Origin: Opitutaceae bacterium UBA2377
GTDB taxonomy: Bacteria; Verrucomicrobiota; Verrucomicrobiia; Opitutales; Opitutaceae
Direction of reading: 5' to 3'
NCBI GenBank assembly: GCA_002344205.1
Contig: DDSZ01000042.1
Location: 277-45,163 of the forward strand
Length of the DNA stretch: 44,887 nt
The notes below the pieces were generated by a model that did no database searches, was not told where the DNA came from, and worked only from the letters and a program-made list of their open reading frames with translations. A program made the translations under genes and the position numbers. Of this stretch, positions 14,026 through 41,587 are shown one piece after another. Each line of letters opens with the position of its first letter. Within the stretch, counting starts at the first letter, position 1.

Positions 14026-14041
14026 TGCAGGGGTTGTGCCA
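14026..14041 (-). promoter_or_regulatory. Sigma-54 (-24/-12) promoter of ATPase 1-TolC
   Basis: Minus-strand TGGCACAACCCCTGCA matches the sigma-54 consensus TGGCAC-N5-TTGCW, with the GG and GC doublets at the required 10-base separation. It lies 17 bp upstream of the ATPase ATG. The flanks (C before, AT after) are the same as in the adaptor promoter at 33536-33551. Confidence 0.82.
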
Positions 14042-14138
14042 GCCGCACTGGATTTTCTTATCAATTTTTCAATCAGTGATTTAAAATAGTCGTCCGAATG
14101 CCGGGAGTCGGATATTGTCCGGCATTGGAATCAGGGCG

Positions 14139-14152
14139 TCCCAATAATGGGA
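14139..14152. promoter_or_regulatory. Putative activator site (UAS) for the sigma-54 promoter
   Basis: TCCCAATAATGGGA, a palindrome TCCC-N6-GGGA, lies 98 bp upstream of the sigma-54 element. The identical 14-mer, with the preceding GCG also shared, stands at 33650-33663 before the adaptor gene. The position suits a bacterial enhancer-binding protein. Confidence 0.72.
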
Positions 14153-14180
14153 AGCGGGTTGCGGCGGGCGATTGCTGGAA

Positions 14181-14416
14181 ATTGGCCACGGAGGCGCGGA
14201 GACGCGGAGAACTGCTGCGGCGCGCCCGGCGGTCAAAAGATCTTCGAACACGATCGAAAGCAAAGGAATCAGGAGTTTCCACAAAGTGGCAGTCCCGGCT
14301 CGCGAAGCTCGGCAAGGTAGGGGCGGTTATCCTTAACCGCCCGGTTCGCGTCCCACGGGCCGTTAAGGATAACGGCCCCTACCGGCGCTGCTGTGCCTCC
14401 GCGTCTCCGTGGCCAA
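14181..14416. repeat. Inverted repeat pair with nested hairpins in a gene-free stretch
   Basis: The outer arms begin at 14181 (ATTGGCCACGGAGGCGCGGA) and end at 14416, with the complement of a close variant. Inside, arms at 14316-14343 and 14356-14383 are inverted copies of a 28-base unit. Each inner arm is itself a 9-bp hairpin around GTTATCCTTAAC. No coding function is apparent in 14153-14448. Confidence 0.7.
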
Positions 14417-14448
14417 TCCTTGGTCGAAGCGGGATCGCCGACGGCGAA

Positions 14449-15672
14449 CTACCAAATCTCCTCGCCGCGATCGAAGACGCCCTGCAGCGCGGCCGCCCAG
14501 GCGGCGGGATCGCGCTTTTTGAGAATTTCTCCCGCAGTCGAGAACGAGACGAAGGCCATGCCGGACGCGAAGTCGTTCGCATAAAGCCCGTAGTAGAGCT
14601 TGCCCGCGTTGGTCGCCATGAAGCGGAGTTGCTTCGCGGCGATGGGTTCGAGCCAAGCGTTGCCCTCGGTGCGCACGGCGGCGTCGAGCAGCAGCCCGGC
14701 GACGAGCGGCTCGTAGCAGCGGAAGTGGTCGGACGGCGGATGTTCGAAGGAACCGTCGGCCATCTGGTTTTGATGAAACCATTCCGTGAATTCCGCGAAG
14801 CGCGCGACGAGGCGCGACCAGATGGTATCGCCGGCGGCGGCGCGGGCGGTTGCGAGTTCGGTGTGCACCTGGTTCGGGGCTTGGGCGGGCACTAGGGTCT
14901 CGGGTTCCGCCTTCGGGCTGAACTGGATGACGTGGCGCAGCGGGACGCTGAGGCGCTTTTTCATCTCCGGGCTGGCGAGGGCGGCGATGAGGCCTTCGGA
15001 GGTGTAGATGAGGATCTGCTGCGGCGCGCTCTTCGCCCATTCGCCCCACAGGGTGTTCTTGTAGTCAAAGGTGGCGATATACTCCACCATGGGCACGGCG
15101 GCGTCATAGTATTTGGTCTCGCCGGTGAGATCGGCGTAGCGGATGAGCGTCGCGGCGAAGAGCGCGTCGGCGCACCAGTATTCCTCCATGCCGTTGGGGT
15201 TGACCTGATGGTTGAGGATGCCGACGCCCATCACGCCCTTGGCGGTGAGATAATTGGCCAGACAGTGATCGAGGTAACGCTTCACGCTGGCGAGCACGGC
15301 CGGATTTTCCGGGAGATGCGGAAAGAGGCGGACGCCCTCCAGCATGCCGTTGGCGGTGGAGGCGTTGTCGGCGACGCAGGAGCAGTTCACCATGCCCTTG
15401 GCGTCGCGATTGTAGCCGTAGCCCATGTCGAACATGTCCGGGTAGTGCACGCCCTGGAATTCCATCATGCGGGCATGGAACCGGCGGCAGATGGCGGTCA
15501 TCCGCGCATCGCCCATGAGATCCATGGTGCGGGCGGCCCCCATGACGACATAGGACTCTTCGAAGCAGGCCTGCATGGGGTGCGCCATGCCGGGGCTCGC
15601 GATGATGTGGTGCGAGAAATAATTCCAGAGCTTGACCAGCCCGCGGGCGGTGACGTTGGGATCGAGTTGCAT
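14449..15672 (-). CDS. Hypothetical protein, probable (alpha/alpha) barrel
   Basis: A 407-residue soluble protein without a signal peptide. The text is dominated by helices with regularly spaced aromatic/acidic pairs (WNYFSHH, EESYVVMGAARTMDLMGD, MEEYWCADALFAATLIRYADLTGETKYYDAA, ADGSFEHPPSDHFRCYEPLVAGLLLDAA), the look of a six-hairpin glycosidase-like toroid (GH88/GH105/GH127 type). I cannot assign a family or catalytic pair. It lies downstream of the permease array on the same strand, 202 bp after permease P6, with a GC hairpin between, and upstream of a repeat-rich gap. It may be independent of the transporter genes. Confidence 0.7.
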   Translation of the reverse strand: MQLDPNVTARGLVKLWNYFSHHIIASPGMAHPMQACFEESYVVMGAARTMDLMGDARMTAICRRFHARMMEFQGVHYPDMFDMGYGYNRDAKGMVNCSCVADNASTANGMLEGVRLFPHLPENPAVLASVKRYLDHCLANYLTAKGVMGVGILNHQVNPNGMEEYWCADALFAATLIRYADLTGETKYYDAAVPMVEYIATFDYKNTLWGEWAKSAPQQILIYTSEGLIAALASPEMKKRLSVPLRHVIQFSPKAEPETLVPAQAPNQVHTELATARAAAGDTIWSRLVARFAEFTEWFHQNQMADGSFEHPPSDHFRCYEPLVAGLLLDAAVRTEGNAWLEPIAAKQLRFMATNAGKLYYGLYANDFASGMAFVSFSTAGEILKKRDPAAWAAALQGVFDRGEEIW

Positions 15673-15874: not shown

Positions 15875-18277
15875 TCACTCTGCGCGCAGTGCCTCGGTCG
15901 GGTTTACCCGGGTGGCCTTGTGGGCTGGCAGCCAACTCGCCCCGAGTCCGATGATCACCAGCACAAGCGAGACGGCGACCAGGCTGGTGCCATCATGGGG
16001 CGAGACTCCGTAGAGCAGGCTGCCCAGCAGATGGGCTGAGGCGAGGCAGCCCGCCACCCCGACCACCAGGCCGGTGGCGGCGAGCCGGAGGCCTTGGGTG
16101 AGCATCAGTTGGCGCACGGCGGCGGCGGTTGCACCGAGGGCCATGCGGATGCCGACCTCACGCGTGCGCTGGCCGACGATGTAACTGAGCACGCCGTAGA
16201 GACCGATGGCGGCGAGCAAAAGCGCCAGCCCCGCGAAGATGGAAAGCAGCGTCAGCATGATGCGCTGGTTGGTCACGGTGTTGTCGAAGAGCTCGTCCAT
16301 CGTCCGCACGGCGAAGATCGGCAGCGTGGGCTCCACCTCGCGCATGGCGGTGCGGATGGCCGGGGTGAGCGCGGCCGGCTCCAGCGCGGTGCGGAGCACA
16401 AAGCTCACGAAGCCCGGCCCGATTTGCCGGTAGGGGTAGTAGAGCTGCACGCGCGAATCCTCGGCGATGCCGTAGTTCTTCACATGTCCGGCCACGCCGA
16501 TGATGGTGAGAGGGGTCGGGTTGGCGGGGTCGCCAAACATCACGCGTTTCCCGAGGGGATCCTGCCCGGCGAAGTGGGTTTCCGCGAAAACGGTGTCGAT
16601 GATGCAGACGCGCGGCTCGTCCAGTTTCTCCTCGTCAGTGAAGGTGCGGCCGCGGATGAGCGGGATGCGCATGGTCTCAAAATAGTCGCGGCTGGCGGCG
16701 TTGTTCTCGGTCGAGAACCGCCGCCCGGGGCCGGGGTCGGGCATGCCTTCGGGGAGGAAGCTGGTCTGGTTGCCGCCGCCGCCCAGCGGCAGCGGGTTGG
16801 TGAGCGCGGCATGGGTGACACCGGGCAAGCCACGCAGCCGGTCCAGGGCGCGGTCGAGCACCTGCACGCGCTTCACCGGATCGGCCCACTCCTGCCCGGG
16901 CAGGACATAGCCGAAAGTGATGACATGATCCGTCTGCAGACCGGTGTCCGCCTCGTAAAGATTTTGGATCGTGCGCATCATCAGGCCCGAGACGAAGAGC
17001 AGCATGAGCGTCAGCGCGAATTCACCGGTGACCAGCACGGAACGCCAGCGGGTGCTGATGCCGCCGCCGCCGGTTCGCCCGCCGGCGGCGAGCGCCTCGT
17101 TGAGATTGGTCTTCGAAGCGGTCAGCGCGGGAACCAGACCGAAGAGCGTGGTGACGCCGACCCCGACCAGCACGGCGAAGGCAAAGACGGTGGCATCCAT
17201 GCCGACCTGGGTGACGAAGGGCGAATTGGCGGGGATGAGGGTCTTGATGCCCTGCATGGTGGCGTAGCCGACGAGCAGCCCAAGTCCGGTGCCCGCCAGC
17301 CCAAGCAGCAGACTCTCGGCGAGCAGCAGGCGGATCAGACGACTGCGACTGGCACCGATGGCGGCACGCAGGGCAAACTCGCGGGAGCGGGCCGCGGCCC
17401 GGGCAAGCAGGAGATTGGCGACATTGGCGCAGGCGATGAGCAGCACGCCGAACGCCGCGCCGAACGAGACCCACACAGCCGTCCGGGCCTGGCCGATCAC
17501 GCGGTCCACCACCGTGGTGAGCGTGACGGAGTTGCCGGTGTTGGACAGCGGATGCTCCTGCTCAAGCTGGCGGGCGATCGCGAGCAGATCGGTGCGCGCG
17601 GTCTCCAGGGTGGCTCCGGGCTTGAGCCGGCCGATGGCGTAGAGTCCCGGGTGGTTGCCGCGATTCATGTTCTGATCGGCGAAAAGCCCGAAGGGCATCC
17701 ATATTTCCGGGCCGTTGGCGGGGAAACGGTAGGAGGCCGGCATCACGCCGATGATGGCATAAAGCTCGCCGCTGAGGATGATCTTTTCCCCCATCACGTC
17801 CGCCCGCCCGCCGAAGTGGCGTTGCCAGAAACCCTCGCTGATGAGCACGGTGCGCTCGGCACCGGGCTTGTCCTCGTCGGCGCCGAACCAGCGGCCGAGC
17901 TTGGGCGCAACCCCGAGCGCGGGAAACATCTCATGGGTGAACTGGGCGCCCGCGACCCGTTCGGTTTCGGTCGGACCGACGTAGTTGAAACTTTGCCCGC
18001 GAAAGACGCCGAGGTGGGTGAAACTTTGCTGGCGTTCGCGCCAATCGAGGAAATTGGGATAGGCCACCGACATGTTCGGCACCTGCTGCGAGTGTTCGCC
18101 GATGAAGACCAGCGAGCGGACTTCCGGCAGGGGCAGCGGCCGCATGAGCATCGCGCTCAGGAAGCTGAAGACGCCGGAGTTGGCACCAATCCCGAGCGCA
18201 AGCGTAACGATGGCAACGGCGGTAAAGCCGGGAGCCTTGCGCAGGCTGCGCAAGGCAAAGCGGAGGTCGGAGATCAT
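15875..18277 (-). CDS. MacB/FtsX-type ABC permease (ADOP type), P6
   Basis: An 800-residue inner-membrane permease made of two fused MacB-like halves, without an ATPase domain. An N-terminal membrane helix (about 17-42: GFTAVAIVTLALGIGANSG) is followed by a periplasmic MacB_PCD domain and a first FtsX block (about 270-345, with [20 protein letters not shown]). A second helix (about 410-435) leads to another periplasmic domain, and a second FtsX block ends in ATRVNPTEALRAE. The C terminus has PAHKATRVNP where sister proteins have [10 protein letters not shown], so it is the more divergent copy. It is last of six tandem permeases and 134 bp after P5. No sigma-54 site precedes it, so it probably depends on upstream transcription. 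Confidence 0.92.
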   Translation of the reverse strand: MISDLRFALRSLRKAPGFTAVAIVTLALGIGANSGVFSFLSAMLMRPLPLPEVRSLVFIGEHSQQVPNMSVAYPNFLDWRERQQSFTHLGVFRGQSFNYVGPTETERVAGAQFTHEMFPALGVAPKLGRWFGADEDKPGAERTVLISEGFWQRHFGGRADVMGEKIILSGELYAIIGVMPASYRFPANGPEIWMPFGLFADQNMNRGNHPGLYAIGRLKPGATLETARTDLLAIARQLEQEHPLSNTGNSVTLTTVVDRVIGQARTAVWVSFGAAFGVLLIACANVANLLLARAAARSREFALRAAIGASRSRLIRLLLAESLLLGLAGTGLGLLVGYATMQGIKTLIPANSPFVTQVGMDATVFAFAVLVGVGVTTLFGLVPALTASKTNLNEALAAGGRTGGGGISTRWRSVLVTGEFALTLMLLFVSGLMMRTIQNLYEADTGLQTDHVITFGYVLPGQEWADPVKRVQVLDRALDRLRGLPGVTHAALTNPLPLGGGGNQTSFLPEGMPDPGPGRRFSTENNAASRDYFETMRIPLIRGRTFTDEEKLDEPRVCIIDTVFAETHFAGQDPLGKRVMFGDPANPTPLTIIGVAGHVKNYGIAEDSRVQLYYPYRQIGPGFVSFVLRTALEPAALTPAIRTAMREVEPTLPIFAVRTMDELFDNTVTNQRIMLTLLSIFAGLALLLAAIGLYGVLSYIVGQRTREVGIRMALGATAAAVRQLMLTQGLRLAATGLVVGVAGCLASAHLLGSLLYGVSPHDGTSLVAVSLVLVIIGLGASWLPAHKATRVNPTEALRAE

Positions 18278-18411
18278 GCGACGGTGGAGTTGGAACGTTC
18301 CTGCAACGTGATCAAAACACCTCGAAGGCGGCCGCGGTTACAGAAAATCGCCGCTGCGTCGCAATTTCGCCGCCTTGCGCCCGATTCAGCCGGAATGGGG
18401 TGACAAATTGA

Positions 18412-20835
18412 TTACTCCGCGCGCAGCGCCTCCATCGGGTCCACCCGCGTGGCGCGGCGGGCGGGAATGAGGCTGGCGAGGGTGCCGACGATCGCCAGCA
18501 CCATGGAGATGATGATGAACGTGCCGGGATCGTTCGGGCTGACTTCGTAGAGCATGCTGGCGAGCAGCCGCGATCCGGCGAAGGCGATCATGAGGCCGAG
18601 GATCAGGCCGAGGCTGAGCAGCCGTGCGGTTTGCCCCAACACCAGCCGGAGAATATCCCTGCGTTGCGCGCCCAAGGCCATGCGCACGCCGATTTCATTG
18701 GTGCGTTGGCTGACGGTGTAGGACATCACGCCGTAGATACCGAGCGCGGCGAGGAACAGCGCCACGACGGAGAAGACGCCGAGCAGAAACAGGGTGAATT
18801 TTTGCGGTGCGATGGAGTGAGCGTCGAAATCCCCTGAAAGGGGCATATGCCGCGGAATGGGCATGGCGGGATCCACCTTCTGGATGCCTGCGGCGACGAT
18901 CAGGCCGGGATTCGGGGTGCCTACCCTGACGCTCACAATCGGCATGAAGTGCGACCAGATGGAGCTTTGCCGAAAGGGTGTGTAAACAGCCGGCCGGGTT
19001 TCCTTGGCGGCCCCGTCCAGTTTCAAGTCAGCCACGATGCCGACAATTTCCAGCCATTCGCGGTTGGCATCGCGGACCAGCGCGATGCGTTTGCCGACGG
19101 GGTTTGCTCCCGGGAAATGTTGCGCGGCCAACTGCTCGCTAACGATGGCGACGCGCGAAGTGTTCTCGCGATCGTGCTCATTGAACCAGCGGCCGCTGAG
19201 GAGCCGGTTGCCGATGACTTTGAAAAAATCCGGGGTAACGGCCGACTGGGTGACGTAGGTCAGCCGACTGGGGTCTGGCTCCGGGCGATCCTCAATATCA
19301 ATTCCAAACATTGCCGCGCCATGATGCGGGAATCCCGTGGTGAAAGCGGCTCCGACCAGCCCGGGTTGCCCGGCGAGCTGGGCCAGCGCTCGATCGGCGA
19401 AATCGATCCGCGCCTGATTGTCGGGATATCTGTCGGGCAGCAGCATGACCCGGCAGACATGGACTTGGCTGGCATTGTAGCCCATTTCCACTTTCTGCAG
19501 ATTGGCATAGGTGCGGGTGAGCAGTCCGGCGCCCACCAAGAGCACAAGGGCGAGGGCTACTTCCGCGACGACGAGGGTATTGCGCAAGCGGGAGCGTTGC
19601 CGGCCATCACCCGCACTGCGGCCGCTGCTCTTCAACGCCAGTGTCAGATCGACCTTGGTGGCCTGAAGCGCCGGCACCAGGCCGAACCCGATGCCGGTCA
19701 ACATGGTCACGACGCTGCTGACGAGCAGGGCGAAACCATCCAGCCGGACCTCGTCGAGGCGGGGCATATTTACCGGCGCAAGGGTCAGGAGCGCGTTCAT
19801 GCTCCAGTAAGCCAGCAGAATACCGAGCACGCCGCCGATCAGCGCGAGCAGGACGCTTTCGACCAGCAGTTGCCGCACGACCCGACTGCGGCTGGCCCCG
19901 AGCGCCGCGCGGAGGGCGATTTCCCGCTGCCGTGAGCTGGCCCGCGCCAGCAGCAGGTTGGCGACATTGACACAGGCGATCAGCAGGAGAAAGCCGACCG
20001 CACCCATGAGAATGTAGAGCGTGGGGCTGGTGTCGCCCACCAGATGGTCATGCAGCGGGACAACCCGCAGTTGGAGATTTTGCCACAGGTCGGGGTTGGT
20101 CCCGGCGAGACGTTCCGCCATGACATTCATTTCCGCCTGCGCCTGGGCGAGCGTCACGCCGGGTTTGAGTTGCCCGACCACCTCGCGCAAAAACTGGGGA
20201 TTGGGCAGGACAGTGCTGGCGACCAAGGGGGAGAATGCCTTGGGACTGCTCATTTGACCAGTCATTGTGCGAAAGCCCGGCGGCATCACCCCGATGATGG
20301 TGAAGGGCTGGTCGTTCAGCAGAATCTCCCGGTTGATGACCGACTCGCTGCCGTTGAACTGCTCCAGCCAATACGCGTGATTTAGGATCACCACATGGGC
20401 CTTACCCTCGATGCCTTCCTCGGGCAAAAAAGTGCGCCCGAGCAGAGGTTGCACCCCGAGGGTTGAAAAATAGTTGAGTGATACCGCGAAGCCAAAGACG
20501 CGAACGGGGAAATCGACACCCGTCAGATGGCCGTGCATCCCGGTCGAGGCTGCCACGCGGTCAAAGACGGTCGCTTGTTTCTGCAACTCCTCGACGGTAT
20601 TCCACCGCGGGGCGAAGGCCCGTTGGTCAGAGGGCCGGACTTGGAGGATCGCGACCAGGCGTTCCGGATTCGCGTAGGGCAATGGCCGCAAGGCGACACT
20701 GTTGACGATGCTGAAGATCGCGGTCGTCGCGCCGATCCCGATGGCGAGGGTGAGGATCGCCACGATCGCAAACCCCCGGGCCTTGCTCAACTGGCGTGCA
20801 CTGTAACGGAGATCCTGGAGAAGATCGTCAAACAT
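18412..20835 (-). CDS. MacB/FtsX-type ABC permease (ADOP type), P5
   Basis: An 807-residue two-module permease. It opens with [20 protein letters not shown], the characteristic amphipathic lead-in of this group, then helix [20 protein letters not shown]. The first FtsX block holds [20 protein letters not shown]; the central helix is [18 protein letters not shown]; the second FtsX block ends [17 protein letters not shown]. The frame is open 42 codons upstream, but I start at the ATG ending at 20835 because sister proteins begin there. A 295-bp gap precedes it, holding an inverted repeat (21023-21124) and no promoter I can name. The last 52 bases before its stop codon are identical to those of P4. 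Confidence 0.92.
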
Positions 20836-21022
20836 GGAGGGAGTGGCGGGGTGCAGCGGGCCGGATGGGGAGTGCTTTGTGGGGGAAGACCAAGGCAGGA
20901 GCCGGGGCGCCTTGGAGTGACCCGGGAACGGGCCGGGATCAGTTCCGGGCCGCCAGCCCATCCATCGGGTTCAGACTAGACAACACTGATTTTGTGCCGA
21001 ACCCCGCCGGCAGGGCGTGCTT

Positions 21023-21124
21023 CAGATTTTCGATTTTGGATGACGAACTGCGACGAGGAGGCGTCGGGCGGAGTGCAGCTTTGGCGGCGGTGCCGCATGA
21101 GGACGGAGGAATCGAAAATCGAAT
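21023..21124. repeat. Inverted copies of an ATTTTCGATT motif between P4 and P5
   Basis: CAGATTTTCGATTTT at 21023 and GAATCGAAAATCGAAT ending at 21124 are inverted relative to each other around about 70 bp without a gene. The 20836-21130 gap holds nothing else I recognise. Confidence 0.5.
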
Positions 21125-21130
21125 AACCCG

Positions 21131-23545
21131 TCACTCCGCGCGCAGCGCCTCCATCGGGTCCACCCGCGTGGCGCGGCGGGCGGGTATGAGGCAGGCGGCC
21201 ACGCAGGCGAGGGTGAGAATCAGGCCGGCCGGCAGGTAGGCCAAGGGATCGATGAGCGGGATGCCGTAAAGCAGCCCTGCGATGCCGCGTGAGGCGACCA
21301 GCGCCAGCAGCAGGCCGCCGAGCAGACCGGGCAGGATCATGCGCATCGCATCCTTCAAGACCAGCCGCGCGACCGTTGCCGGAGCGGCGCCGAGGGCGAG
21401 ACGCACGCCGAATTCCGCGGTGCGGCCGGCCACGGCGAACGCCTGCACGGCATACACTCCCATCAGACAAAGCGTGACCGCCAAGCCGGCAAATATGCCG
21501 ACGAGAACCAGGCTGAAACGGGTTTGCCAGGCACTGTTGGCGAAGAAATCGGCCACGCGGACCTGAAGGTAGGCGCTGGCCTCCGGATCCACCGCCTGCA
21601 CCGCCCCCGCGATCTGATCGGGGGTCAACGGCAGGGAGCCGTGCAGGCGAATGAGAATGCCCGTGTCGGCCGGCGTGGCCTGGGTGTGGGGCAGAAAAAA
21701 GGAATCGATCACGGCGGGCTGGTTGCCGTGGCTGACAATGTCGCTGACCACGCCGACCACCTCCCACCAGCCGCCCGGCGCGCCCTCGATGCGGACACGA
21801 CGGCCGAGCGGATCCATGTCGGGCCAGTATTTGTCCGCCAGACTGCGGCTGATGACCACGACCCGGGCGGTGTCGGCGCGATCGTCCTCCCCCAGCCAGC
21901 GCCCGGCGAGGAGGCGGAGCTGCAGGGTTTCGAGCAACCCGGCCGAAACGTAGCGGCGCGCGGCGCGCTTGGGGGTCTCGTTGAGCTGGAGTCCGTCGCC
22001 TTCCTGGACGAATCCGAAATAGCTGGCCGGAACGGCGGCAAAGGCGAAGTCGGTGGCGGCGCCGGCCGCGACGTGCGGCAGTTCCCGCAGCCGGTCGATG
22101 ACGGCTTCAAAATACCGCACGCGGGCGGCGGGGTCGCCGTAGGCTTCGCCGCGGGTGCCCAGGCGGAACGAATGGAGTTGTTCGACGGGAATGCCGTGGT
22201 CAACGGACCGGATGGCCTGGAAGCTGCGCACGAGTTGCACGGCGCCGATGAGCAAGGCCAGGGCCAGCGCGACCTGGATGGAAACCAGCAGACGGATCGC
22301 AACCCCACCGGTGGCCGCGCCCGCCTGCCGGGCGCCGTTCCGCAGGGTGGCCTCGAGGTTCAGCCGGGCGGCTTGCCACAGGGGAACGAGACTGAAGCCG
22401 ACGGCGATGACGGCGGCCAACAGGACGGCGGCGGCGACCACCGGCAGGCCGATGGTGGGCGTGGGCAACTGGCGCAGACCGGCCGTCGGCGGCAGCAACT
22501 GGACCGCCAAGGGCGCCAGCCACACCGCCAGCAGGAGGCCGAGGCCGGCGCCGAGGGCGGTGAGCACAAAGGATTCGGCGAAAAACTGCCGGAAAAGCCG
22601 GCCCGGGCCGGCGCCGATGGCCAGCCGCACCGCGAACTCGCGGCGGCGGCGGATGGCCTGCACGAACAGCAGGCAGCCGGCGTTGACGCAGGCGACGGCG
22701 AGCACGAGGCCGACCGTGGTCTGCAGGATCAGCAACTGGCGCCGGAAATTTCCCAACAAGGCATCGCGCAGGTTGACGGCCGTCAGCCCTTTGTCGGCGT
22801 TGGTGGCCGGATGGTCGCGGCCGAGCGTGTGTGCGAGGGCCGCCAGCTCGCCGCGGGCCGTCCCGACGGAGGCCCCGGGCGCCAGCTCGCCAAACATGAA
22901 GTGCCGGCGCACGCCGCGTTCGTTGCGCTCGAAATCCGCGGGGAGCATGGCGACCCAGGCCTGCTGCTGGTCGCCGACAAGCGGCAGCACCGTATCCGGC
23001 GGCAGCACGCCGACGATCCGGCAACTGCGGCCATCAAGGGTGACACTGGCGCCGAGCACGCCACGATCGGCACCGAAGCGGCGCTGCCAGAACTCGTGGC
23101 TCAGGACGAGCGCCCGTTCGCCGGCCAGCTCGGCGTTGGCTGCGTGGATGGTTTCACCGACGTGGGCGGACACGCCGAGCATCGGGAAAAATTCCGGCGT
23201 CACGCGCTGGACAAAGGCCACTTCAGCCCCGCCCGGGGTCCGCACCGTGAAAGATTCGTTGCGCACAATCGCTGTCCGGGAAAAGGCGCGGACATGGTCG
23301 TGGATGTCGGCGGCGTTGCCGAAGGTGGTCCGCCAGAGGCTGCCGGGGCCGGTCGTGAGCGGATACTCGTGGATGGAGACGATCCGGCCGGGCTGGCCGT
23401 AGGGCAGTGGCCGCAGCAGGTAGGAATCGAGCAAACCCAGGACCAGCAGCGTGGCGGCCAGGGCCAGCCCCAGCGTCAGGATTATTCCGCCGGAGAAAAG
23501 CGGCCGGCGCAGAATGACCGAGAAACTATGTTGCAGGGCATGCAT
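21131..23545 (-). CDS. MacB/FtsX-type ABC permease (ADOP type), P4
   Basis: An 804-residue two-module permease whose beginning differs from its neighbours: MHALQHSFSVILRRPLFSGG, then helix IILTLGLALAATLLVLGLLD instead of the usual 'LTLALGIGANTAIF'. The FtsX blocks are present, with VLAVACVNAGCLLFVQAIRR in the first (VANLLLAR replaced by AGCLLFVQ), and the C terminus is [17 protein letters not shown]. The divergent first block suggests it is specialised or partly degenerate, while its C-terminal tail is nearly identical to P5. It starts 27 bp after P3, which implies co-transcription. Confidence 0.9.
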   Translation of the reverse strand: MHALQHSFSVILRRPLFSGGIILTLGLALAATLLVLGLLDSYLLRPLPYGQPGRIVSIHEYPLTTGPGSLWRTTFGNAADIHDHVRAFSRTAIVRNESFTVRTPGGAEVAFVQRVTPEFFPMLGVSAHVGETIHAANAELAGERALVLSHEFWQRRFGADRGVLGASVTLDGRSCRIVGVLPPDTVLPLVGDQQQAWVAMLPADFERNERGVRRHFMFGELAPGASVGTARGELAALAHTLGRDHPATNADKGLTAVNLRDALLGNFRRQLLILQTTVGLVLAVACVNAGCLLFVQAIRRRREFAVRLAIGAGPGRLFRQFFAESFVLTALGAGLGLLLAVWLAPLAVQLLPPTAGLRQLPTPTIGLPVVAAAVLLAAVIAVGFSLVPLWQAARLNLEATLRNGARQAGAATGGVAIRLLVSIQVALALALLIGAVQLVRSFQAIRSVDHGIPVEQLHSFRLGTRGEAYGDPAARVRYFEAVIDRLRELPHVAAGAATDFAFAAVPASYFGFVQEGDGLQLNETPKRAARRYVSAGLLETLQLRLLAGRWLGEDDRADTARVVVISRSLADKYWPDMDPLGRRVRIEGAPGGWWEVVGVVSDIVSHGNQPAVIDSFFLPHTQATPADTGILIRLHGSLPLTPDQIAGAVQAVDPEASAYLQVRVADFFANSAWQTRFSLVLVGIFAGLAVTLCLMGVYAVQAFAVAGRTAEFGVRLALGAAPATVARLVLKDAMRMILPGLLGGLLLALVASRGIAGLLYGIPLIDPLAYLPAGLILTLACVAACLIPARRATRVDPMEALRAE

Positions 23546-23572
23546 CCGACTGAGGTGCAGTTTGCCTGAGCT

Positions 23573-25999
23573 TTATTCCGCGCGCAGTGCTTCCATGGGA
23601 TCCACCTGCATCGCGCGGCGGGCGGGGATGAGGCAGGCGAGGGTGGCGACGGCGGCGAAGAACAGCGCCACGAGGCCGAAGACCGCCGGATCGAAGGGCT
23701 GCACTTGGTAAAGGATTTCCTGGAGCAACCGGCTGGAGGCGTAGGCGCCCACGAGCCCGAGCACCAGGCCGAGGCCGACCTGCACCGCCCCGCTGCGGAG
23801 GACGAGGTTGCGGATGTCGCCGGCGGCCGCGCCGAGCGCCATGCGCACGCCGATCTCGCCGGTGCGCTGGGTGACGTTGTAGGCCATCACCGAATAAACG
23901 CCGACCGTGGCCAGCAGTGCGGCGATCGCGGCAAAGGCGATCAGGAGCGACATGGTGAGGCGCTGCACACCGATGGAGTCGCTCACCAGTTGCTCCAGGG
24001 TCTGGGGATTGGCGAGGGCAATGGTGGGATCGATTTCCTTCAGCACACGGCGCAGCACGGGGATGGCAGCGGCGGCAGACAGTTCGGGCCGCACCTGCGC
24101 AACGACGGTCATGAAGGCGCCGCCGCGCTGTGATCGGGCATAGTAGATTTCGTCGAGCGGTGGCGTGGCGAGACCATCGGCCCGCACGTCGCGGATCACA
24201 CCGACAATACGCACCGGCACGTTGGCATTGGCACCGGTGAGAAAGTGCTGGTCGAGGGCGGACTCGCCGGGGAAGAGCTTCTTGGCGAAGGACTCATTGA
24301 CGAGGGCCACATCTTCGCCACCAAAACGATCTCCGGAATTGATGAAGCGGCCTTCGCGAAGCTGGATGCCCATCGTTGGGAAATAGCCGGGGGTGACGAA
24401 GCGGATGAAGGAAAGCGGGCGTTCGTGCACCGGCAGGATCGGGCGGCCTTGGATGGAATAAGGCGAGATGGAGCCGATGCCGGCGAGAGGCAGACCGAAG
24501 ATGGCGCCGCCGTGCGTGAGCTCGGGTGCCTGATCGAGCTTCTCCTGCAGTTGGTGATAGAATTCGCGGGTGAGCTCCGGGGTGTTGTAGCGCGCGGCGG
24601 GCAGGTTGATGAGCCCGTAAACGCGACCCTCGGTTTGGAAGCCGAGGTCGGTCTGCTGCAGCTTGTGAAAGCTCAACACGAGCAGCCCGGCGCAAATGAG
24701 CAGGGTGAGGGAAAGCGCGACCTGCACCACGACGAGCCCCTGGCGAAAGACCTTGGCGGCCCGGCCGCCGCCGGCCCCGCGGGCGTTGTCCTTGAGGACG
24801 ACCTGCACGTCGGTGCGCGAGGCCTGCAGGGCCGGGTAGAGTCCGATGACCAGGCTGGCGAGCAGCGCGGTGCCCAGGGCGAAGAGCAGCACGAACGGAT
24901 CGAGCCCGAGCTCATCGCCGCGCGGCAACTGCGAGCCGGCGAGCACCTGGATGCCCCGCAGCGACCACCAGGCGAGAAGGACGCCGAGGCCGCCGGCGAC
25001 GACGGAAAAGAGGGCCGTCTCGGCGAGGAATTGCCGGACGATCTCGCGGCGGGTGGCGCCGAGCGACAGCCGCACGGCGATTTCCTTCTGGCGCGTGCTG
25101 ACCCGCGCGAGGAAAAGGTTGGCGATGTTGGCGCAGGCGATCAGGAGGACCGCGGCCACGGCGCCGGCGAGGGTCCAGAACGTGCGGGTGAGGTTGCCGA
25201 GGACCTGGGTGGTGACGGTGCGCACCTCGTTGTCGTTGTTGGCGTCGATGTGCGTGGGATTGGCGGTCTTGAACTGGGCGGCCATCTCGCGGACGCGGAG
25301 CGTGGCGACCTCGGCGGTGACACCGGGAACGAGCCGGCCCACGGCCTGGTGCACGATGGCATTGGCCCGGTTCTGCGGGTTGAGGAAAGGCAGTTCGAGC
25401 GGCCGGGGCACGAGGACGTTCACGCCGGCGAAGGGCGGAGGCATGGTGACCGGGAGGATGCCGACGATCTCGCGCGGCACCCCGTCGAGCTGGATGACCC
25501 GGCCGATGATGCCGGGATCGGTGGAGAAGCGGTTCTGCCAGAGCTGGTGACTGATCATCGCGACCAGCGGTCCGCCCTCGCGGTCCTCCTCGGCGGTGAA
25601 ATGCCGGCCCTGCGAGGGGTTGAGCCCGAGGACGGTGAGGAAGTTGGCCGTGACATGCTGGCCGAAGACCTGCTCGGGATCGCCCGTGCCCTCGGTCAGG
25701 GTGAAGCCGTTGCCCGCCGACATGGCGAGATCGGCGAAGACATCCTTGCGCTCCCGGTAGGCCTCATACTTGGCCCAGGAGAGGGCCGGGGCCTCAAAGT
25801 TGCGCTCGGTGTTGACGCCCCAGATGGAAACCAGCGAGTCCGGGTTCGGGTAGGGCAGGGGACGCAGCACGACGGCCTGCAGGACGCTGAACAGGGAGGT
25901 GCAGGCGCCGATGGCCACCGCCATGGTGAGCACCGCGATGATCGTGAAGCTGGGTGCCTTGAGGAGGGAGCGGAGGGCGAACTTGAGGTCGGAGAGCAT
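23573..25999 (-). CDS. MacB/FtsX-type ABC permease (ADOP type), P3
   Basis: An 808-residue two-module permease. MLSDLKFALRSLLKAPSFTI leads into helix IIAVLTMAVAIGACTSLFS. The first FtsX block contains LIACANIANLFLARVSTRQK. The central helix is VVVQVALSLTLLICAGLLV. The second FtsX block ends [17 protein letters not shown]. Periplasmic MacB_PCD-like regions occupy about 45-240 and 440-650. It begins 30 bp after the P2 stop and is followed 27 bp later by P4, so P2-P3-P4 almost certainly share a transcript started at the sigma-54 promoter at 28593-28608. Confidence 0.93.
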   Translation of the reverse strand: MLSDLKFALRSLLKAPSFTIIAVLTMAVAIGACTSLFSVLQAVVLRPLPYPNPDSLVSIWGVNTERNFEAPALSWAKYEAYRERKDVFADLAMSAGNGFTLTEGTGDPEQVFGQHVTANFLTVLGLNPSQGRHFTAEEDREGGPLVAMISHQLWQNRFSTDPGIIGRVIQLDGVPREIVGILPVTMPPPFAGVNVLVPRPLELPFLNPQNRANAIVHQAVGRLVPGVTAEVATLRVREMAAQFKTANPTHIDANNDNEVRTVTTQVLGNLTRTFWTLAGAVAAVLLIACANIANLFLARVSTRQKEIAVRLSLGATRREIVRQFLAETALFSVVAGGLGVLLAWWSLRGIQVLAGSQLPRGDELGLDPFVLLFALGTALLASLVIGLYPALQASRTDVQVVLKDNARGAGGGRAAKVFRQGLVVVQVALSLTLLICAGLLVLSFHKLQQTDLGFQTEGRVYGLINLPAARYNTPELTREFYHQLQEKLDQAPELTHGGAIFGLPLAGIGSISPYSIQGRPILPVHERPLSFIRFVTPGYFPTMGIQLREGRFINSGDRFGGEDVALVNESFAKKLFPGESALDQHFLTGANANVPVRIVGVIRDVRADGLATPPLDEIYYARSQRGGAFMTVVAQVRPELSAAAAIPVLRRVLKEIDPTIALANPQTLEQLVSDSIGVQRLTMSLLIAFAAIAALLATVGVYSVMAYNVTQRTGEIGVRMALGAAAGDIRNLVLRSGAVQVGLGLVLGLVGAYASSRLLQEILYQVQPFDPAVFGLVALFFAAVATLACLIPARRAMQVDPMEALRAE

Positions 26000-26029
26000 G
26001 GTAAAGGAAAGCTCGGGCGTGGGACGCGC

Positions 26030-28706: not shown

Positions 28707-28720
28707 TCCCGGGAATGGGA
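28707..28720. promoter_or_regulatory. Putative activator site (UAS) before permease P2
   Basis: TCCCGGGAATGGGA shares TCCC-N3-AATGGGA with the three other sites and lies 99 bp upstream of the sigma-54 element. It sits just past the end of the P1 gene. Confidence 0.7.
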
Positions 28721-32266: not shown

Positions 32267-33520
32267 TCAGCGCAGCTTGATGCGGTCGGCGCTGTCCCAC
32301 TGGGACATGTCGGAGAGAATGACGCGGTCGCCGGGCTGGAGGCCGCTGATGATTTCGATGGTGTTGACCGAGCTGCGGCCGAGCTGGACCTGCGTGCGGG
32401 TGGCATGGCTGCCGTCGGGATCGAGCCGGAAGATGCCGACCGTGCTGCGCTCCTGGCCGAAGGCCGGCCGGCCGACGTTGACGACGTTGTCGAGCCGCTC
32501 GAGTTCGATGGTGCCGTCCACCGAGAGGTCGGGGCGCGAACCGCGGGGCAGGGGGCCGTCGATGATCACGTCCACCGTCACGGTGCCGGCCTGGACGGAG
32601 GGGTCGATGCGGGCGACGTGGCCGGGAACGACGCCATTGCGCGTGTCGATCGTCGCGGGCAGGCCGATGGCGATGTCCTTGGCCTGGGTCTCGGCGATGC
32701 GGATCTCGGCCTTGAGGCGGGTGGGGTCGGCGACACGGGCGAGGTTGGTGCCGGGCTGCACCTGCGCGCCGACCTCGACCGGGAGGGCGGAGAGCACGCC
32801 GGTCATCGAGGAGCGGACCTGCAGCGCGTCGAGCTCGTCGTGGCGCAACCGGGCCTGCGAACGCAGGCGGGCGACCTCGGCCTCCTGCACGGCGAGCTGG
32901 GGCTTGATGGACTCCTGGGCGAAGGCGAAGCGCTTCTGCTCGATGGCATGGCGCGTGGCGGCCTGCTCGGCGGTGACCTGCGAGAGGCGCAGCTCCAGCT
33001 GGGAAACGAGGCCGTCCTTGAAGAGCTGTTCGTTCACCTCGGCGCGCAGGCGGGACTGTTCGAAATCGGCCTTGGCGTTGGCGGCGGCGGCCTCGGCGGC
33101 GAGCACGTCGCGCTCGAGCTGCACGCGCAGGTTGGCGAGGGCGGCCTCGGCGGCGCCGAGCTGCGAGTCGGCGTTGGCGGCGGCCTGCTCGACATCGGGA
33201 TTGGCGAGGATGAGAATCACGCTGTCGGGGGTGACCTCGGCGCCGGGGCGCAGGATGATGCGGTCCACCCGGCCCTGGGTGCGGGCGGCGATCCAGCGGA
33301 TCTCCTCCGGCACGAGGGTGCCGAGGCCGCGGACCTGCCGGAGCATCTGGCCCTGCTTGACGGTGTCCACCCACACGAGGTTGCGCTCGACGGTGGGGGC
33401 GGCGGGCTTCAGCCGGCCGAGGAGGACGGTGATGCCAACGAGCGCGATCGCGGCGACGCCGCCGTAGATGATGCGCTTTTTGCGTTTGGCCTTGGATTGG
33501 TCGGGGCGCGGGATGTCCAT
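32267..33520 (-). CDS. Periplasmic adaptor (HlyD / membrane fusion protein)
   Basis: A 417-residue adaptor linking the inner-membrane transporter to TolC. It has a basic N terminus (PDQSKAKRKKR), one membrane helix (about 17-36: IIYGGVAAIALVGITVLLG), and a split barrel-sandwich/lipoyl region (GRVDRIILRPGAEVTPDSVI ... VRSSMTGVLSALPVEVGAQV). Between these is a long Ala/Glu/Arg coiled-coil hairpin (about 105-215), and a beta-barrel and membrane-proximal domain follow. The ATG ending at 33520 gives the membrane anchor directly. A sigma-54 promoter lies 16 bp upstream. It is the only adaptor in the window, so it probably serves both ATPases, all array permeases and the TolC at 11.7 kb. Confidence 0.92.
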   Translation of the reverse strand: MDIPRPDQSKAKRKKRIIYGGVAAIALVGITVLLGRLKPAAPTVERNLVWVDTVKQGQMLRQVRGLGTLVPEEIRWIAARTQGRVDRIILRPGAEVTPDSVILILANPDVEQAAANADSQLGAAEAALANLRVQLERDVLAAEAAAANAKADFEQSRLRAEVNEQLFKDGLVSQLELRLSQVTAEQAATRHAIEQKRFAFAQESIKPQLAVQEAEVARLRSQARLRHDELDALQVRSSMTGVLSALPVEVGAQVQPGTNLARVADPTRLKAEIRIAETQAKDIAIGLPATIDTRNGVVPGHVARIDPSVQAGTVTVDVIIDGPLPRGSRPDLSVDGTIELERLDNVVNVGRPAFGQERSTVGIFRLDPDGSHATRTQVQLGRSSVNTIEIISGLQPGDRVILSDMSQWDSADRIKLR

Positions 33521-33535: not shown

Positions 33536-33551
33536 TGCAGGCCCTGTGCCA
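33536..33551 (-). promoter_or_regulatory. Sigma-54 (-24/-12) promoter of the adaptor operon
   Basis: Minus-strand TGGCACAGGGCCTGCA differs from the ATPase 1 promoter only in the spacer, and the flanking C and AT are also shared. The predicted start at about 33525 leaves a five-base leader before the adaptor ATG. Confidence 0.82.
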
Positions 33552-33649
33552 GCGGATGAAATATTGCGCAAAGCATTGGGATTTATGATGATAAAATTAT
33601 ACACATGTTTTTGGACTACAGGTGCCGCGTCGAACGCGGGATTGTGGCG

Positions 33650-33663
33650 TCCCAATAATGGGA
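33650..33663. promoter_or_regulatory. Putative activator site (UAS) before the adaptor operon
   Basis: TCCCAATAATGGGA, identical to 14139-14152, lies 99 bp upstream of the sigma-54 element. In both cases the site begins exactly 130 bp from the first base of the start codon. Confidence 0.72.
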
Positions 33664-35036: not shown

Positions 35037-35050
35037 ATAACCCAAACTCC

Positions 35051-37807: not shown

Positions 37808-39151
37808 TCACGCCGGCAGGCGGAGGGAGGCGATGGTGCCGGAGGCGTCGGTGCGGTTCTTGAGCACGAGCGAGCCGCCGTGGTTTTCGGCGATCTGGCG
37901 GCAGAGGACCAGGCCGATGCCGGAGCCGGCGGGCTTGGTCGTGAAGAAGGGCACGAAGAGGTTGGTGGCGTTGGCGATGCCGGGCCCGTCGTCCTCGACC
38001 CGGAGTTCAAACACCTTGCCCTGCCGGCTCCAGGCGATGCGCACGCCGGCCTCCGGGTGGCCGGCGGTGCGCATTTCCAGCGCCGCCTCGACCGCGTTCT
38101 TCACGAGGTTGATCAGCACCTGCTCGATCTGGGCCGCGTCGCACCCAATGGTGAGGTCGTCGCCGCCGAGGATGGTTGCGGACAAACGCGTTTCCAGAGC
38201 GGTGATGCGCTGCACGAGCGGGGCGATCTCGCAGGGCGCGATGGCGGGCGCGGGCAGCTTGGCAAACTTGGCGTAAGCCTGCATGAAGCGGCTGAGGCCC
38301 TCGGAGCGGGATTCGATGATCTCGAGGCCGGAGCGCATGTCGGCTTCCCAATCCGGGGCGCGCTTTTCCCGGCGGAGCAACGCGCCGAGGCTGCCGGCGA
38401 GCGACTTGATGGGCGCGAGCGAGTTGTTGAGCTCGTGGCCGAGCACGCGCACGAGGCGTTGCCAGGCCTTGAGCTCCTCCTCGCGGAGCGCCTGGCTGAG
38501 GTCGCCGATGACGACGAGCTGGTGGGGGCGGCCGCCTTCGCGGAAGAGCGTGCGGCGCATGCCCCAGCGGCCGGCTTTGCCGGGAAAGTTGATGTTGATG
38601 ATGCGGCCGGTCTCGCCTTCGAGACATTCCGTGAGGCCGAGTTCGGCGGCGGCGCGGCCGAGGATGCGTTCGGCGGGTTTGTCCAACAGGTTTTGGGCGG
38701 CGGGATTGGCGAGGCGCAGGGTGCCGGATTCGTCGAAGGCGAAGATGGCCACGTCGATCTCCTCCATCACGGTGCGGAGCAGCGCGGTGGCCTCCATGGC
38801 GCCAATGCGCTGGTCCTGCAGGGTGCGGCTGAGAATGTTGATCTCGGCAAGGACATCGCCGAGCGGCTCGTCGCGCCGGGCGCCGCGGGCGCGGACGGAG
38901 AAGTCGCCCTCGCGCAGCGCGGAGAGCAGGTTGGCCATGGTCTGGAGCGGGCGCACCACGCGCATGCGGGCGGCGGCGGCGAAACCCAGCCAGGAGCCGA
39001 AGACGAGCACGCCGAGCGTCCACTGCACGCGCGCGGGAAAATCACCCTGCCAGATGAGGACCGTGGCGACGATGATCGCCGGCAACCCGGCAAGGAGCGC
39101 CTGCGCGAAGACGGCGTTTTCGTGGGAGAGGCGGCGGGATGGCTTTGCCAT
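37808..39151 (-). CDS. NtrY-like sensor histidine kinase
   Basis: A 447-residue membrane kinase. Two helices (about 16-34 and 44-62) flank a very short periplasmic loop, so it probably senses the membrane or a cytoplasmic signal. HAMP-like (about 63-115) and PAS (about 120-220) regions follow. The phosphorylated His239 lies in VLGHELNNSLAPIKS, the N-box in NLVKNAVEA (Asn352), and the G boxes are DDGPGI (387-392) and GSGIGL (409-414). I start at the ATG ending at 39151 rather than the TTG 15 bases earlier. It is last in a leftward cluster with the NtrC-type regulator, its probable partner, separated by a GxxExxY gene. Confidence 0.93.
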   Translation of the reverse strand: MAKPSRRLSHENAVFAQALLAGLPAIIVATVLIWQGDFPARVQWTLGVLVFGSWLGFAAAARMRVVRPLQTMANLLSALREGDFSVRARGARRDEPLGDVLAEINILSRTLQDQRIGAMEATALLRTVMEEIDVAIFAFDESGTLRLANPAAQNLLDKPAERILGRAAAELGLTECLEGETGRIININFPGKAGRWGMRRTLFREGGRPHQLVVIGDLSQALREEELKAWQRLVRVLGHELNNSLAPIKSLAGSLGALLRREKRAPDWEADMRSGLEIIESRSEGLSRFMQAYAKFAKLPAPAIAPCEIAPLVQRITALETRLSATILGGDDLTIGCDAAQIEQVLINLVKNAVEAALEMRTAGHPEAGVRIAWSRQGKVFELRVEDDGPGIANATNLFVPFFTTKPAGSGIGLVLCRQIAENHGGSLVLKNRTDASGTIASLRLPA

Positions 39152-39264: not shown

Positions 39265-39648
39265 TCAGAGAGGATCGGAGAGGGCGTATTTGCGGACTTC
39301 GAGCTTGGGAGAACCGAAATTGATGAGAAGACCATGCTCAATGCGGGAAGCGCGTAAATAACCGAGGAGCTGGGCAACGTGTTCGTCAACCAATGTGCGC
39401 ACCGCCTTCAGTTCGATGACAAGATGCTGATCGACGAAAAGATCAGCGAAGAATTCGCCCAGCAAGGTGCCATCCTCGTCCAGGACATTGAGCGGGTGCT
39501 GCTGGATGACGGGGAGGTGTTGCTTGCGCAGACGATGGGCGAGGCCGTTCTCGTAAACTTTTTCAACATGGCCGTGGCGGAGATGGCGGTGCAGGGCGAA
39601 GCTGGTTTCGCGGACTTGATCGCAGAGCTGGAATATGGGGTCTTTCAT
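39265..39648 (-). CDS. GxxExxY protein
   Basis: A 127-residue protein of the GxxExxY family (TIGR04256 type), related to PDDEXK nucleases. The name-giving motif is GHVEKVYENGL. The conserved FFADLFVDQHLVIELKAV contains the Asp and ExK of the PD-(D/E)xK-like core, and LLGYLRASRIEHGLLINFGS closes the family pattern. Function is unknown. I start at the ATG ending at 39648; the open frame extends into a repeat upstream. The gene is wedged between the response regulator and kinase genes and bounded by copies of one intergenic repeat, as if inserted there. Confidence 0.88.
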   Translation of the reverse strand: MKDPIFQLCDQVRETSFALHRHLRHGHVEKVYENGLAHRLRKQHLPVIQQHPLNVLDEDGTLLGEFFADLFVDQHLVIELKAVRTLVDEHVAQLLGYLRASRIEHGLLINFGSPKLEVRKYALSDPL

Positions 39649-39752: not shown

Positions 39753-41120
39753 TCAGAGTCCGTATTTTTCGAGCCGGCGGTAGAACGCGCTGCGGCTGAG
39801 CCCGAGTTCCTCGGCGGCCTGGCGGGCGTTGCCGTTGCAGCGGGCGAGGGTCTTCTTGATCAGGAAGGCTTCGACCTCCTCGATGCTCATCTCCTCCAGC
39901 CTCGGCGCGGCCTGGCCGGCGTTGAGCCCGAGGTCGGCGGCGCGGACCACCTTGCCCTGGGCCATGAGCACGCCGCGCTCGACGGCGTGGTCGAGTTCGC
40001 GGACGTTGCCAGGCCAGGCGTAGGCGCGCATGGTTTCAAGCGCGGCGTCGTCGAAACCGGTGATGGCCTTGCGGTAGCGCTCCACGTGGGCCTTGAGAAA
40101 ATGCTGGGCGAGCAGGGCGATGTCCTCGCGGCGGTCGCGCAGCGGCGGCAGATGGATGTGGATGGTGTTGAGCCGGAAAAGCAGATCCTGCCGGAAGCGG
40201 CCGGCGGTCACCTCGGCCGGCAGGTCGGCATTGGTGGCGGAGATGAGGCGGACGTTGGCGTGATGGGTCTTCGACGAGCCGACGCGCTCAAACTCCCCGG
40301 TCTCGATGGTGCGCAGGATCTTTGCCTGCTGACTCATGGGGATGTTGCCGATCTCGTCCATGAACAGCGTGCCGCCCTCGGCGAGCTCGAAGCGGCCGGC
40401 GCGGTCGGCCTTCGCGTCGGTGAAGGCGCCGCGCACGTGGCCGAAGAGCTCGCTCTCGAAGACGCCCTCGGGGAGGCCGCCCATGTTGACGGAGATGAAA
40501 GGCTGGGCGCTGCGCACGCTCACGGCGTGCAGGGCGCGGGCGACGACGCCCTTGCCGGTGCCGTTTTCGCCGGTGATGAGCACGTTGGCGTCGGAGGGGC
40601 CCACCCGGGCGATGATCTCGAGCACCGGGCGCATGGCGGCGGAGCCGGCGATGAGGGTGGGGCCGTCCTTGCCGCGCAAAAGCTGGTTTTCCTGTTCGAG
40701 CCGGCGGTAGGCGCGCACGGCGCTGCCGAGCTCGATCTGGTTTTTGACGATGGCGAGCAACCGCGGGTTGTCCCAGGGCTTGGTCACGAAATCGCGGGCG
40801 CCGCGGCGCATGGCCTCGACGGCGACATCCACGCTGGCCCAGGCGGTCATCACGACCACGGGCAGGGAGGAATCAATGGTCTGGAGCTTGTTGAGGAGGT
40901 CCAGGCCCTCCTGCCCGCTGGTGGTGTCGCGGGCGTAGTTCAGGTCGATCAACGCCATCGCGAAATCGCGGGCCTCGACGGCCTTGATGACGGCGGCGGG
41001 AGATTTGACGGCCTCGATCTGGTAACCCTCGCACTTCAGCAGCAACCGCAGGGCCTCCAGCACATCGGGCTGGTCGTCGGCGATGAGGATGCGCGGGGCG
41101 GAGGATTCCGGGGCGGCCAT
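39753..41120 (-). CDS. NtrC-type response regulator, sigma-54 activator
   Basis: A 455-residue bacterial enhancer-binding protein. The receiver domain (about 9-125) has acidic residues in IADDQPD, phosphoacceptor Asp59 in ALIDLN, and Lys in VTKPWD. The AAA+ domain (about 155-390) has Walker A GENGTGKG, Walker B TLFMDEIG, and the sigma-54-contact loop GAFTDA (231-236), a variant of GAFTGA. A Fis-type HTH follows (NGNARQAAEELGLSRSAFYR). It should remodel sigma-54 holoenzyme at promoters with upstream binding sites. It is second in a cluster headed by a sigma-54 promoter and UAS, so autoactivation is likely. Its probable targets are the three other promoter/UAS modules found here. Confidence 0.95.
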   Translation of the reverse strand: MAAPESSAPRILIADDQPDVLEALRLLLKCEGYQIEAVKSPAAVIKAVEARDFAMALIDLNYARDTTSGQEGLDLLNKLQTIDSSLPVVVMTAWASVDVAVEAMRRGARDFVTKPWDNPRLLAIVKNQIELGSAVRAYRRLEQENQLLRGKDGPTLIAGSAAMRPVLEIIARVGPSDANVLITGENGTGKGVVARALHAVSVRSAQPFISVNMGGLPEGVFESELFGHVRGAFTDAKADRAGRFELAEGGTLFMDEIGNIPMSQQAKILRTIETGEFERVGSSKTHHANVRLISATNADLPAEVTAGRFRQDLLFRLNTIHIHLPPLRDRREDIALLAQHFLKAHVERYRKAITGFDDAALETMRAYAWPGNVRELDHAVERGVLMAQGKVVRAADLGLNAGQAAPRLEEMSIEEVEAFLIKKTLARCNGNARQAAEELGLSRSAFYRRLEKYGL

Positions 41121-41174
41121 GGACGGGAGCGAGTGACGCGGCGGGGCGCGGACCTGTCAAGCTGCCGGGGCGGC

Positions 41175-41423
41175 TCAGGCGGCGACGAGGGCGGCGACGC
41201 GGCGACGGCAAGCGGTGCGCTTGGCCGGGGCGGCGATCCGGGCCGGTTCGAACCGGGATTCGCGGGGTTGCCGGTAATCGTGCAGGATGATGCCGATGAG
41301 GCCGGAGATGGCGAACAGACTGATGGCCGTCTCGGCACTGAGGCTCGTGTAGGTAAACACCGCGAACGCGAGGGCGCCGGTGGCGAGATTGAACGTGAGG
41401 TTCTTGATGAGGGAGTGGTTCAT
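41175..41423 (-). CDS. Two-helix small membrane protein heading the regulator cluster
   Basis: An 82-residue protein with two adjacent membrane helices (about 10-28, FNLATGALAFAVFTYTSLSA; and 31-48, TAISLFAISGLIGIILHDY) and a basic cytoplasmic-type tail (PAKRTACRRRV). I do not recognise a family. It is the first gene after a sigma-54 promoter (27 bp upstream) and is followed 54 bp later by the NtrC-type regulator. Its prime position in the activated unit suggests a role in sensing, feedback or membrane protection. Confidence 0.7.
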   Translation of the reverse strand: MNHSLIKNLTFNLATGALAFAVFTYTSLSAETAISLFAISGLIGIILHDYRQPRESRFEPARIAAPAKRTACRRRVAALVAA

Positions 41424-41449
41424 GATGAGTTTGAAGTTGCCACCATGAC

Positions 41450-41465
41450 TGCACGGGCCGTGCCA
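41450..41465 (-). promoter_or_regulatory. Sigma-54 (-24/-12) promoter of the regulator cluster
   Basis: Minus-strand TGGCACGGCCCGTGCA matches the consensus including the G after CAC. The predicted start, about 41439, gives a leader of about 16 bases before the two-helix protein gene. Confidence 0.8.
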
Positions 41466-41573
41466 ACTGATTTTTGTTTTCGCAACTCAATGAAAACCAA
41501 TGGATAAAATTTTTCCACAACTTTTCAGACCGGAGAATCACCGACGTTTGCTTTCGTAAACGGGAGGCGCGAT

Positions 41574-41587
41574 TCCCGGAAATGGGA
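41574..41587. promoter_or_regulatory. Putative activator site (UAS) before the regulator cluster
   Basis: TCCCGGAAATGGGA lies 109 bp upstream of the sigma-54 element. That is one helical turn more than the 98-99 bp at the other three promoters, so it keeps the same DNA face. Confidence 0.7.

Follow-up and report, generated by a model that had tools for sequence, protein, structure and literature searches.

What controls a group of export genes that lies beside an NtrC-family response regulator and is interspersed with four similar motif pairs? The question is raised by a 44,887-nt stretch of DNA from Opitutaceae bacterium UBA2377 (assembly GCA_002344205.1, contig DDSZ01000042.1, positions 277 to 45,163 of the forward strand), hereafter the window. 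A preliminary description had proposed that the pairs, each a candidate -24/-12 element with a palindrome about 100 bp upstream, are sigma-54 promoters and enhancers that unite the export genes and the regulator in one regulon. Our analysis makes it highly probable (about 0.87) that this response regulator activates transcription from the four modules and that these are sigma-54 promoters (Table 1).

Paired motifs in the genome and the family

The four minus-strand 16-mers TGGCAC-N6-TGCA and the four 14-mers TCCC-N3-AATGGGA (TCCCATT-N3-GGGA on the transcribed minus strand) are present exactly where the preliminary description had placed them, and all four modules sit between called genes. The bases between the two elements number 97, 98, 98 and 108, each one below the described spacings of 98, 99, 99 and 109. 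The 16-mer alone is not rare, with 12 occurrences in the genome versus 7 for the reversed pattern, and the 14-mer with at most two mismatches is not above chance in the window (11 found versus 10.5 expected). Searched with a gap of 85-115 bases, the pair occurs four times in the 3.46-Mb genome, always in the window and on one strand; the reversed pattern gave no match, and a register-shifted control (N5 for N6) gave none in this genome and a single match in 200 genomes of the family. Among 252 family genomes the pair was found 271 times, in 90 genomes, versus five times for the reversed pattern; specificity lies in the pair.

A profile built from 56 modules, 53 fetched from relatives and three from the window, ranks the four window modules at the top of the genome with E-values of 9e-18 to 1.7e-11, three of them having helped to build it. 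The fifth match (L281, G000:C44:8543-8645, E 6e-5) aligns to model positions 25-129 only, and TCCC-N6-GGGA was not seen in the 170 bases upstream of it. This sigma-54-like promoter half precedes a gene for a 115-aa secreted-looking protein, and another activator may act on it. With a relaxed pattern, 13 matches were obtained versus 9 for its reverse, four of the 13 being the known modules, so that there is no sign of further targets in this genome. RpoN itself is encoded, with one Sigma54_DBD match of 193 bits in a 494-aa frame.

Two local features of the promoters were noted in passing. Mirrored -24/-12-like elements lie on the plus strand at 33524-33539 (the fifth exact 16-mer of the window, overlapping the element of module 3) and at 41438-41453 (one mismatch), sharing a TGCA with modules 3 and 4, respectively; they are possibly divergent promoters or chance. 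With a transcript start 12 bases past the GC of the -12 element, the leaders would be 5 nt for the adaptor gene (33520-33525) and 6 nt for ATPase 1 (14009-14015), leaving no space for a ribosome-binding site and making these transcripts nearly leaderless.

A two-site enhancer at two helix-phased distances

We fetched 120 of the 271 family matches from the matches listed, with genus g40 thinned and some rows of other genera skipped, and with two duplicate modules dropped (122 to 120). Their gaps fall into two classes one helical turn apart, 93-100 bases in 94 modules and 107-111 bases in 25, with none at 101-106. The one remaining module (L146), with a gap of 88 bases, lies inside an rpoN reading frame; we take it as chance. 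When regulator loci, partly from the same genomes, were searched over 70-130 bases, all 70 gaps were 96-102, 107-111 or 120. Phase clustering at a period of 10.5 bp reached 0.78, versus at most 0.27 in 20,000 uniform draws. The suggestion that the fourth site of the window, with its longer gap, keeps the same face of the helix is well supported by the two gap classes together with this phase clustering.

The preliminary description had taken a single palindrome as the enhancer. Instead, we find a tandem of two sites, the second being an element TYYCR-N4-CG that follows TCCC-N6-GGGA at 22 bp, a position on which the search had not selected. In the logo of 119 modules of relatives, which omits the module with gap 88, the second site shows T in 99%, C two bases on in 99%, then R, and later C in 78% and G in 82%. 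Counted over the 120 modules, five key positions match in 82, four in 24, three in 12 and two in 2. All four window modules, none of which was used for the logo, carry the second site. An NtrC-type activator acts as an oligomer and usually needs two sites about two helical turns apart. The spacer between enhancer and promoter was compared with the E. coli IHF consensus WATCAR-N4-TTR, as given in an excerpt of PMC7962754: an IHF-like box with at least 8 of 9 matches occurs in 36 of 119 spacers, versus 10.4 expected in shuffles, and 19 of the 36 boxes are centred 24-25 bp before TGGCAC.

The neighbouring regulator as candidate activator

The protein encoded at the regulator locus matches PF00072, PF00158 and PF02954 above cut-off, so that the domains expected of a sigma-54-type activator are borne out; the loop reads GAFTDA, not the canonical GAFTGA that the activator assignment would lead one to expect. 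It scores below cut-off for all NCBIfam equivalogs displayed, the best being AtoC with 387 versus 714 bits. Across 80 regulator loci, a kinase gene follows the regulator within 1.5 kb in 75 and an adaptor gene lies on the regulator's strand in 58, many loci being cut by contig ends.

Presence of the pair follows presence of the regulator. Close orthologs, at 75% identity or more, turned up in 82 of the 252 family genomes, of which 81 carry the exact pair, versus 9 of the 170 others (Fisher p 2e-54, without correction for phylogeny). In the one exception, G043, the module before the regulator is a variant with GGAA for GGGA, which the profile detected. Within the genus, regulator and pair are both found in G000 and G073 and both missing from G115, G095 and G039. 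Profile matches were obtained in 53 of the 54 close-ortholog loci of named records, and all 91 of them are oriented as the regulator; the regulator loci (L053-L132) and the G genomes overlap and are not independent, L053 having the coordinates of G073.

Relatives of the regulator were also found in other Verrucomicrobia and in Acidobacteria. A phylum-wide sample holds the pair in 26 of 387 genomes, 18 of them in the family. Three of the eight others (two f12, one f17) also have the second site, and the remaining five look like chance from a reading of the rows. Of 26 loci with a more distant regulator (59-72% identity), 12 gave a profile match at E <= 1e-3. The palindrome stands 133-134 bp from a -24/-12-like site in L123, L124, L126 and L128, and 64 bp from one in L121, so the spacing rule fails in these loci. 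Loci whose regulators are more distant or had no module matched the profile at E <= 1e-4 in 9 of 12, the three without a match being L290, L292 and L293.

Co-occurrence, gene order and the restriction of the pair to the locus uphold the proposal of one autoregulated regulon with the adjacent regulator as its likely activator. The circuit that we propose draws on the computed motifs, spacing classes, second site, conservation, co-occurrence and gene order. The histidine kinase probably phosphorylates the regulator and so gives its active form, which would bind the two tandem sites 22 bp apart, first TCCC-N6-GGGA and then TYYCR-N4-CG. A bent AT-rich spacer would bring the bound regulator to sigma-54 RNA polymerase, which would sit some 98 or 108 bp away on the -24/-12 element. 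The operons switched on would be those of the adaptor, ATPase 2 and permease, of the permease array, of ATPase 1 and the TolC-type protein, and the regulator's own, which opens with a small membrane protein.

Several points weigh against this circuit. The co-occurrence statistic ignores kinship. Nine genomes have the pair and no close regulator ortholog was found in them; the contig of G010 stops 390 bases behind one of its modules, and the regulator of G012 and of G057 is more distant, at 55% identity, which leaves six unexplained. One close-ortholog locus, L088, gave no profile match. A genome search found a single HU/IHF-family gene, which makes true IHF doubtful, hence our term IHF-like. 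The GAFTDA loop is found in 80 of 80 regulator orthologs, and an excerpt of PMC10714721 reports that VfmH, a GAFTDA protein, was without sigma-54 in a pull-down. Finally, binding, phosphorylation, bending and transcription are steps that we infer.

The sigma-54 promoters could be real and the tandem sites be used by another enhancer-binding protein, with the neighbouring regulator a bystander. Other such proteins probably exist, the regulator query having returned 61 candidate stretches in this genome, of which six were scored, and the nine genomes with pair but no close ortholog would fit. We nevertheless consider a bystander improbable, because the pair follows the ortholog across the family as well as within the genus and precedes the regulator's own operon. 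Alternatively, the regulator might bind the sites but, with its GAFTDA loop, have lost contact with sigma-54 and act as a repressor or with another sigma factor. The invariant loop and the VfmH result speak for such a loss, which we regard as very improbable given that the helical phase between the sites and the -24/-12 elements is fixed, as looping activation requires, that GAFTDA is counted among the variants that would retain activation (PMC4641369, in the part available), and that RpoN is encoded. Chance or shared coding repeats, suggested by the frequency of the lone 16-mer and by the L146 module in rpoN, have a negligible probability, since chance origin is ruled out by the reversed-pattern and register-shifted controls and is at odds with the unselected second site, the two sharp spacing classes and the position of the window modules between called genes. 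We thus retain activation by the neighbouring regulator as the preferred explanation of the four modules.

Target genes, small membrane proteins and known systems

Table 1. Modules and genes of the locus in window coordinates; predicted transcript starts assume a start 12 bases after the GC of the -12 element.
Feature	Position	Strand	Details
Module 1	14026..14152	-	palindrome 14139-14152; second half-site 14120-14130 TTCCAATGCCG; -24/-12 element 14026-14041; gap 97; predicted start 14015; before ATPase 1; profile 56.4 bits
Module 2	28593..28720	-	palindrome 28707-28720; second half-site 28688-28698 TTTCAGTTTCG; -24/-12 element 28593-28608; gap 98; predicted start 28582; before permease array; profile 53.8 bits
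Module 3	33536..33663	-	palindrome 33650-33663; second half-site 33631-33641 TCCCGCGTTCG; -24/-12 element 33536-33551; gap 98; predicted start 33525; before HlyD-type adaptor; profile 66.2 bits
Module 4	41450..41587	-	palindrome 41574-41587; second half-site 41555-41565 TCCCGTTTACG; -24/-12 element 41450-41465; gap 108 (long class); predicted start 41439; before small membrane protein and regulator; profile 46.0 bits
Small membrane protein, 82 aa	41175..41423	-	ends ALVAA; first gene of regulator operon
NtrC-family response regulator	39753..41120	-	receiver, sigma-54 AAA+ (GAFTDA), Fis-type helix-turn-helix (HTH); proposed activator
GxxExxY / PDDEXK_3 protein	39265..39648	-	between regulator and kinase
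Sensor histidine kinase	37808..39151	-	HATPase and PAS above Pfam cut-offs, HAMP below; H-box by eye
HlyD/RND-type periplasmic adaptor	32267..33520	-	module 3
ATP-binding cassette (ABC) ATPase 2, LolD/DarD-like	31318..32016	-	
ADOP permease	28741..31152	-	MacB core and FtsX domains; TIGR03434 869 bits, cut-off 622.3
Array of five MacB-core/FtsX permeases	15875..28543	-	behind module 2; members 26030-28543, 23573-25999, 21131-23545, 18412-20835, 15875-18277
ABC ATPase 1	13344..14009	-	module 1
TolC-type outer membrane efflux protein (OEP)	11703..13151	-	

The genes behind the modules of relatives follow the two gap classes. Exporter genes stand behind 66 of the 120 modules (adaptor 23, permease 18, ATPase 1 12, TolC 8, and a TPR/SGL protein plus permease 5), and all 66 gaps are short. 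The regulator comes first behind 17 modules (12 short, 5 long), small membrane proteins behind 11 (10 long), secreted TonB_C-like proteins behind 8 (4 long), other small secreted proteins behind 4 (all long) and TonB behind 3 (all short); these classes were partly assigned by hand, and 11 modules are unclassified. The window fits the same rule, its three exporter modules being short and its regulator module long. This sorting of gaps by gene type may partly reflect common descent of the promoters. The module had been expected to be confined to efflux and regulator genes, which does not hold in relatives: TonB and the secreted and small envelope proteins make the regulon wider than efflux, and we read it there as an autoregulated export and cell-envelope response. 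Small secreted proteins similar to an isolated TonB C-terminal domain were seen behind the modules at L143, L149, L153, L158, L175, L186, L189 and L217. Two of the eight TonB_C-like proteins were run on Pfam, one scoring above cut-off and one just below.

The regulator gene does not come first behind the fourth module; the leading gene there encodes an 82-aa membrane protein. In 43 loci with a profile match upstream of the regulator, listed by hand, a comparable small protein lies between module and regulator in 39. In these proteins a signal-like segment at the N-terminus is joined by a further hydrophobic segment, and usually there is also a D-Y motif followed by basic residues. Their C-terminus is AA in 32 of 39, where composition predicts about 1.4, and LAA or VAA in 26 of 39 (about 0.6 predicted). 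Those of the small membrane proteins that were run against Pfam and NCBIfam matched no family. A profile search yielded 30 homologs, none with a Pfam domain; where the source gives a name, it is hypothetical protein. The LAA or VAA ends recall SsrA-type C-terminal degrons, with the difference that the location of the tail is predicted from hydrophobic segments only. The transfer-messenger RNA (tmRNA) of the genome (L298 1501-1853), in the frame that we read, encodes a tag ending NYEEMPLAA before the stop; ARAGORN reports a different tag, which looks wrong for this genome. It is no more than a reasonable guess that the small membrane protein is a fast-turnover feedback protein.

The efflux function of the locus is putative and assigned by homology. 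The array permease at 26030-28543, the only array member run on NCBIfam, is an ADOP by TIGR03434 with 765.5 bits. Models of the darobactin exporter and of MacB remained below their cut-offs (DarD 254.4 and 236 versus 375 bits, DarC 85.3 versus 450, MacB below 966). A 407-aa reading frame on the minus strand (14449-15672), between the permease array and ATPase 1, gave no Pfam or NCBIfam match. On the plus strand, 33730-37726 holds a short-chain dehydrogenase, a PadR regulator and a further MacB-core permease between the kinase and the adaptor, genes that lie close together in many relatives. The GxxExxY gene also stands between regulator and kinase in L055, L056 and L090 and is placed elsewhere in L053; it looks like a mobile insertion.

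The system resembles known ones in its parts. Like the NtrC, ZraR, AtoC and PrsR regulons, it combines a receiver, an AAA+ domain and a Fis-type HTH with sites distant from the -24/-12 element; unlike NtrC-type regulons, it has a GAFTDA loop, and its proposed targets comprise an ABC export system together with small envelope proteins. With MacAB-TolC and darobactin (Dar) exporters it shares an adaptor, MacB-core/FtsX permeases, LolD/DarD-like ATPases and a TolC-type protein, whereas its ATPases are separate and six duplicated permeases lie on the minus strand (two of the six ADOP by NCBIfam). Predicted sigma-54 promoters are enriched before COG0577 permeases and COG1136 ATPases in Opitutia (PMC12316311, PLoS One 2025), which its authors call the first evidence linking sigma-54 to such ABC genes. 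That study, as far as its available text goes, concerns the same gene groups in the same bacterial class as the present locus, and sigma-54 control of such genes in Opitutia is to this extent partly known already. It reports an enrichment of gene groups and, in that text, does not name an activator of these systems; its main text does not contain the words IHF, palindrom or upstream activator. Searches of the openly licensed PMC literature listed no recognisable description of the activator, the enhancer, the spacing classes, the regulon shape or the small protein.

A wider proposal can be offered only tentatively, and we think it unlikely to hold in full: that the locus represents an envelope-stress circuit, not described before, which belongs to Verrucomicrobiota and has related forms in Acidobacteriota, and in which one two-component sigma-54 activator works from an enhancer of two sites placed at either of two helix-phased distances. 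Export machinery would be served by the short distance, and by the long one a self-limiting branch headed by an undescribed family of small membrane proteins with an SsrA-like degron, whose fast turnover by a ClpXP-type protease would set or reset the kinase.

Taken together, an NtrC-family activator without a known role gains a predicted binding motif, a promoter rule and a testable list of targets, and the published statistical link between sigma-54 and FtsX-like ABC genes in Opitutia becomes a defined circuit. The two gap classes, one helical turn apart and sorted by gene type, constitute a natural experiment on DNA looping, and the family of small membrane proteins with an Ala-Ala end provides a new handle on feedback in envelope signalling.

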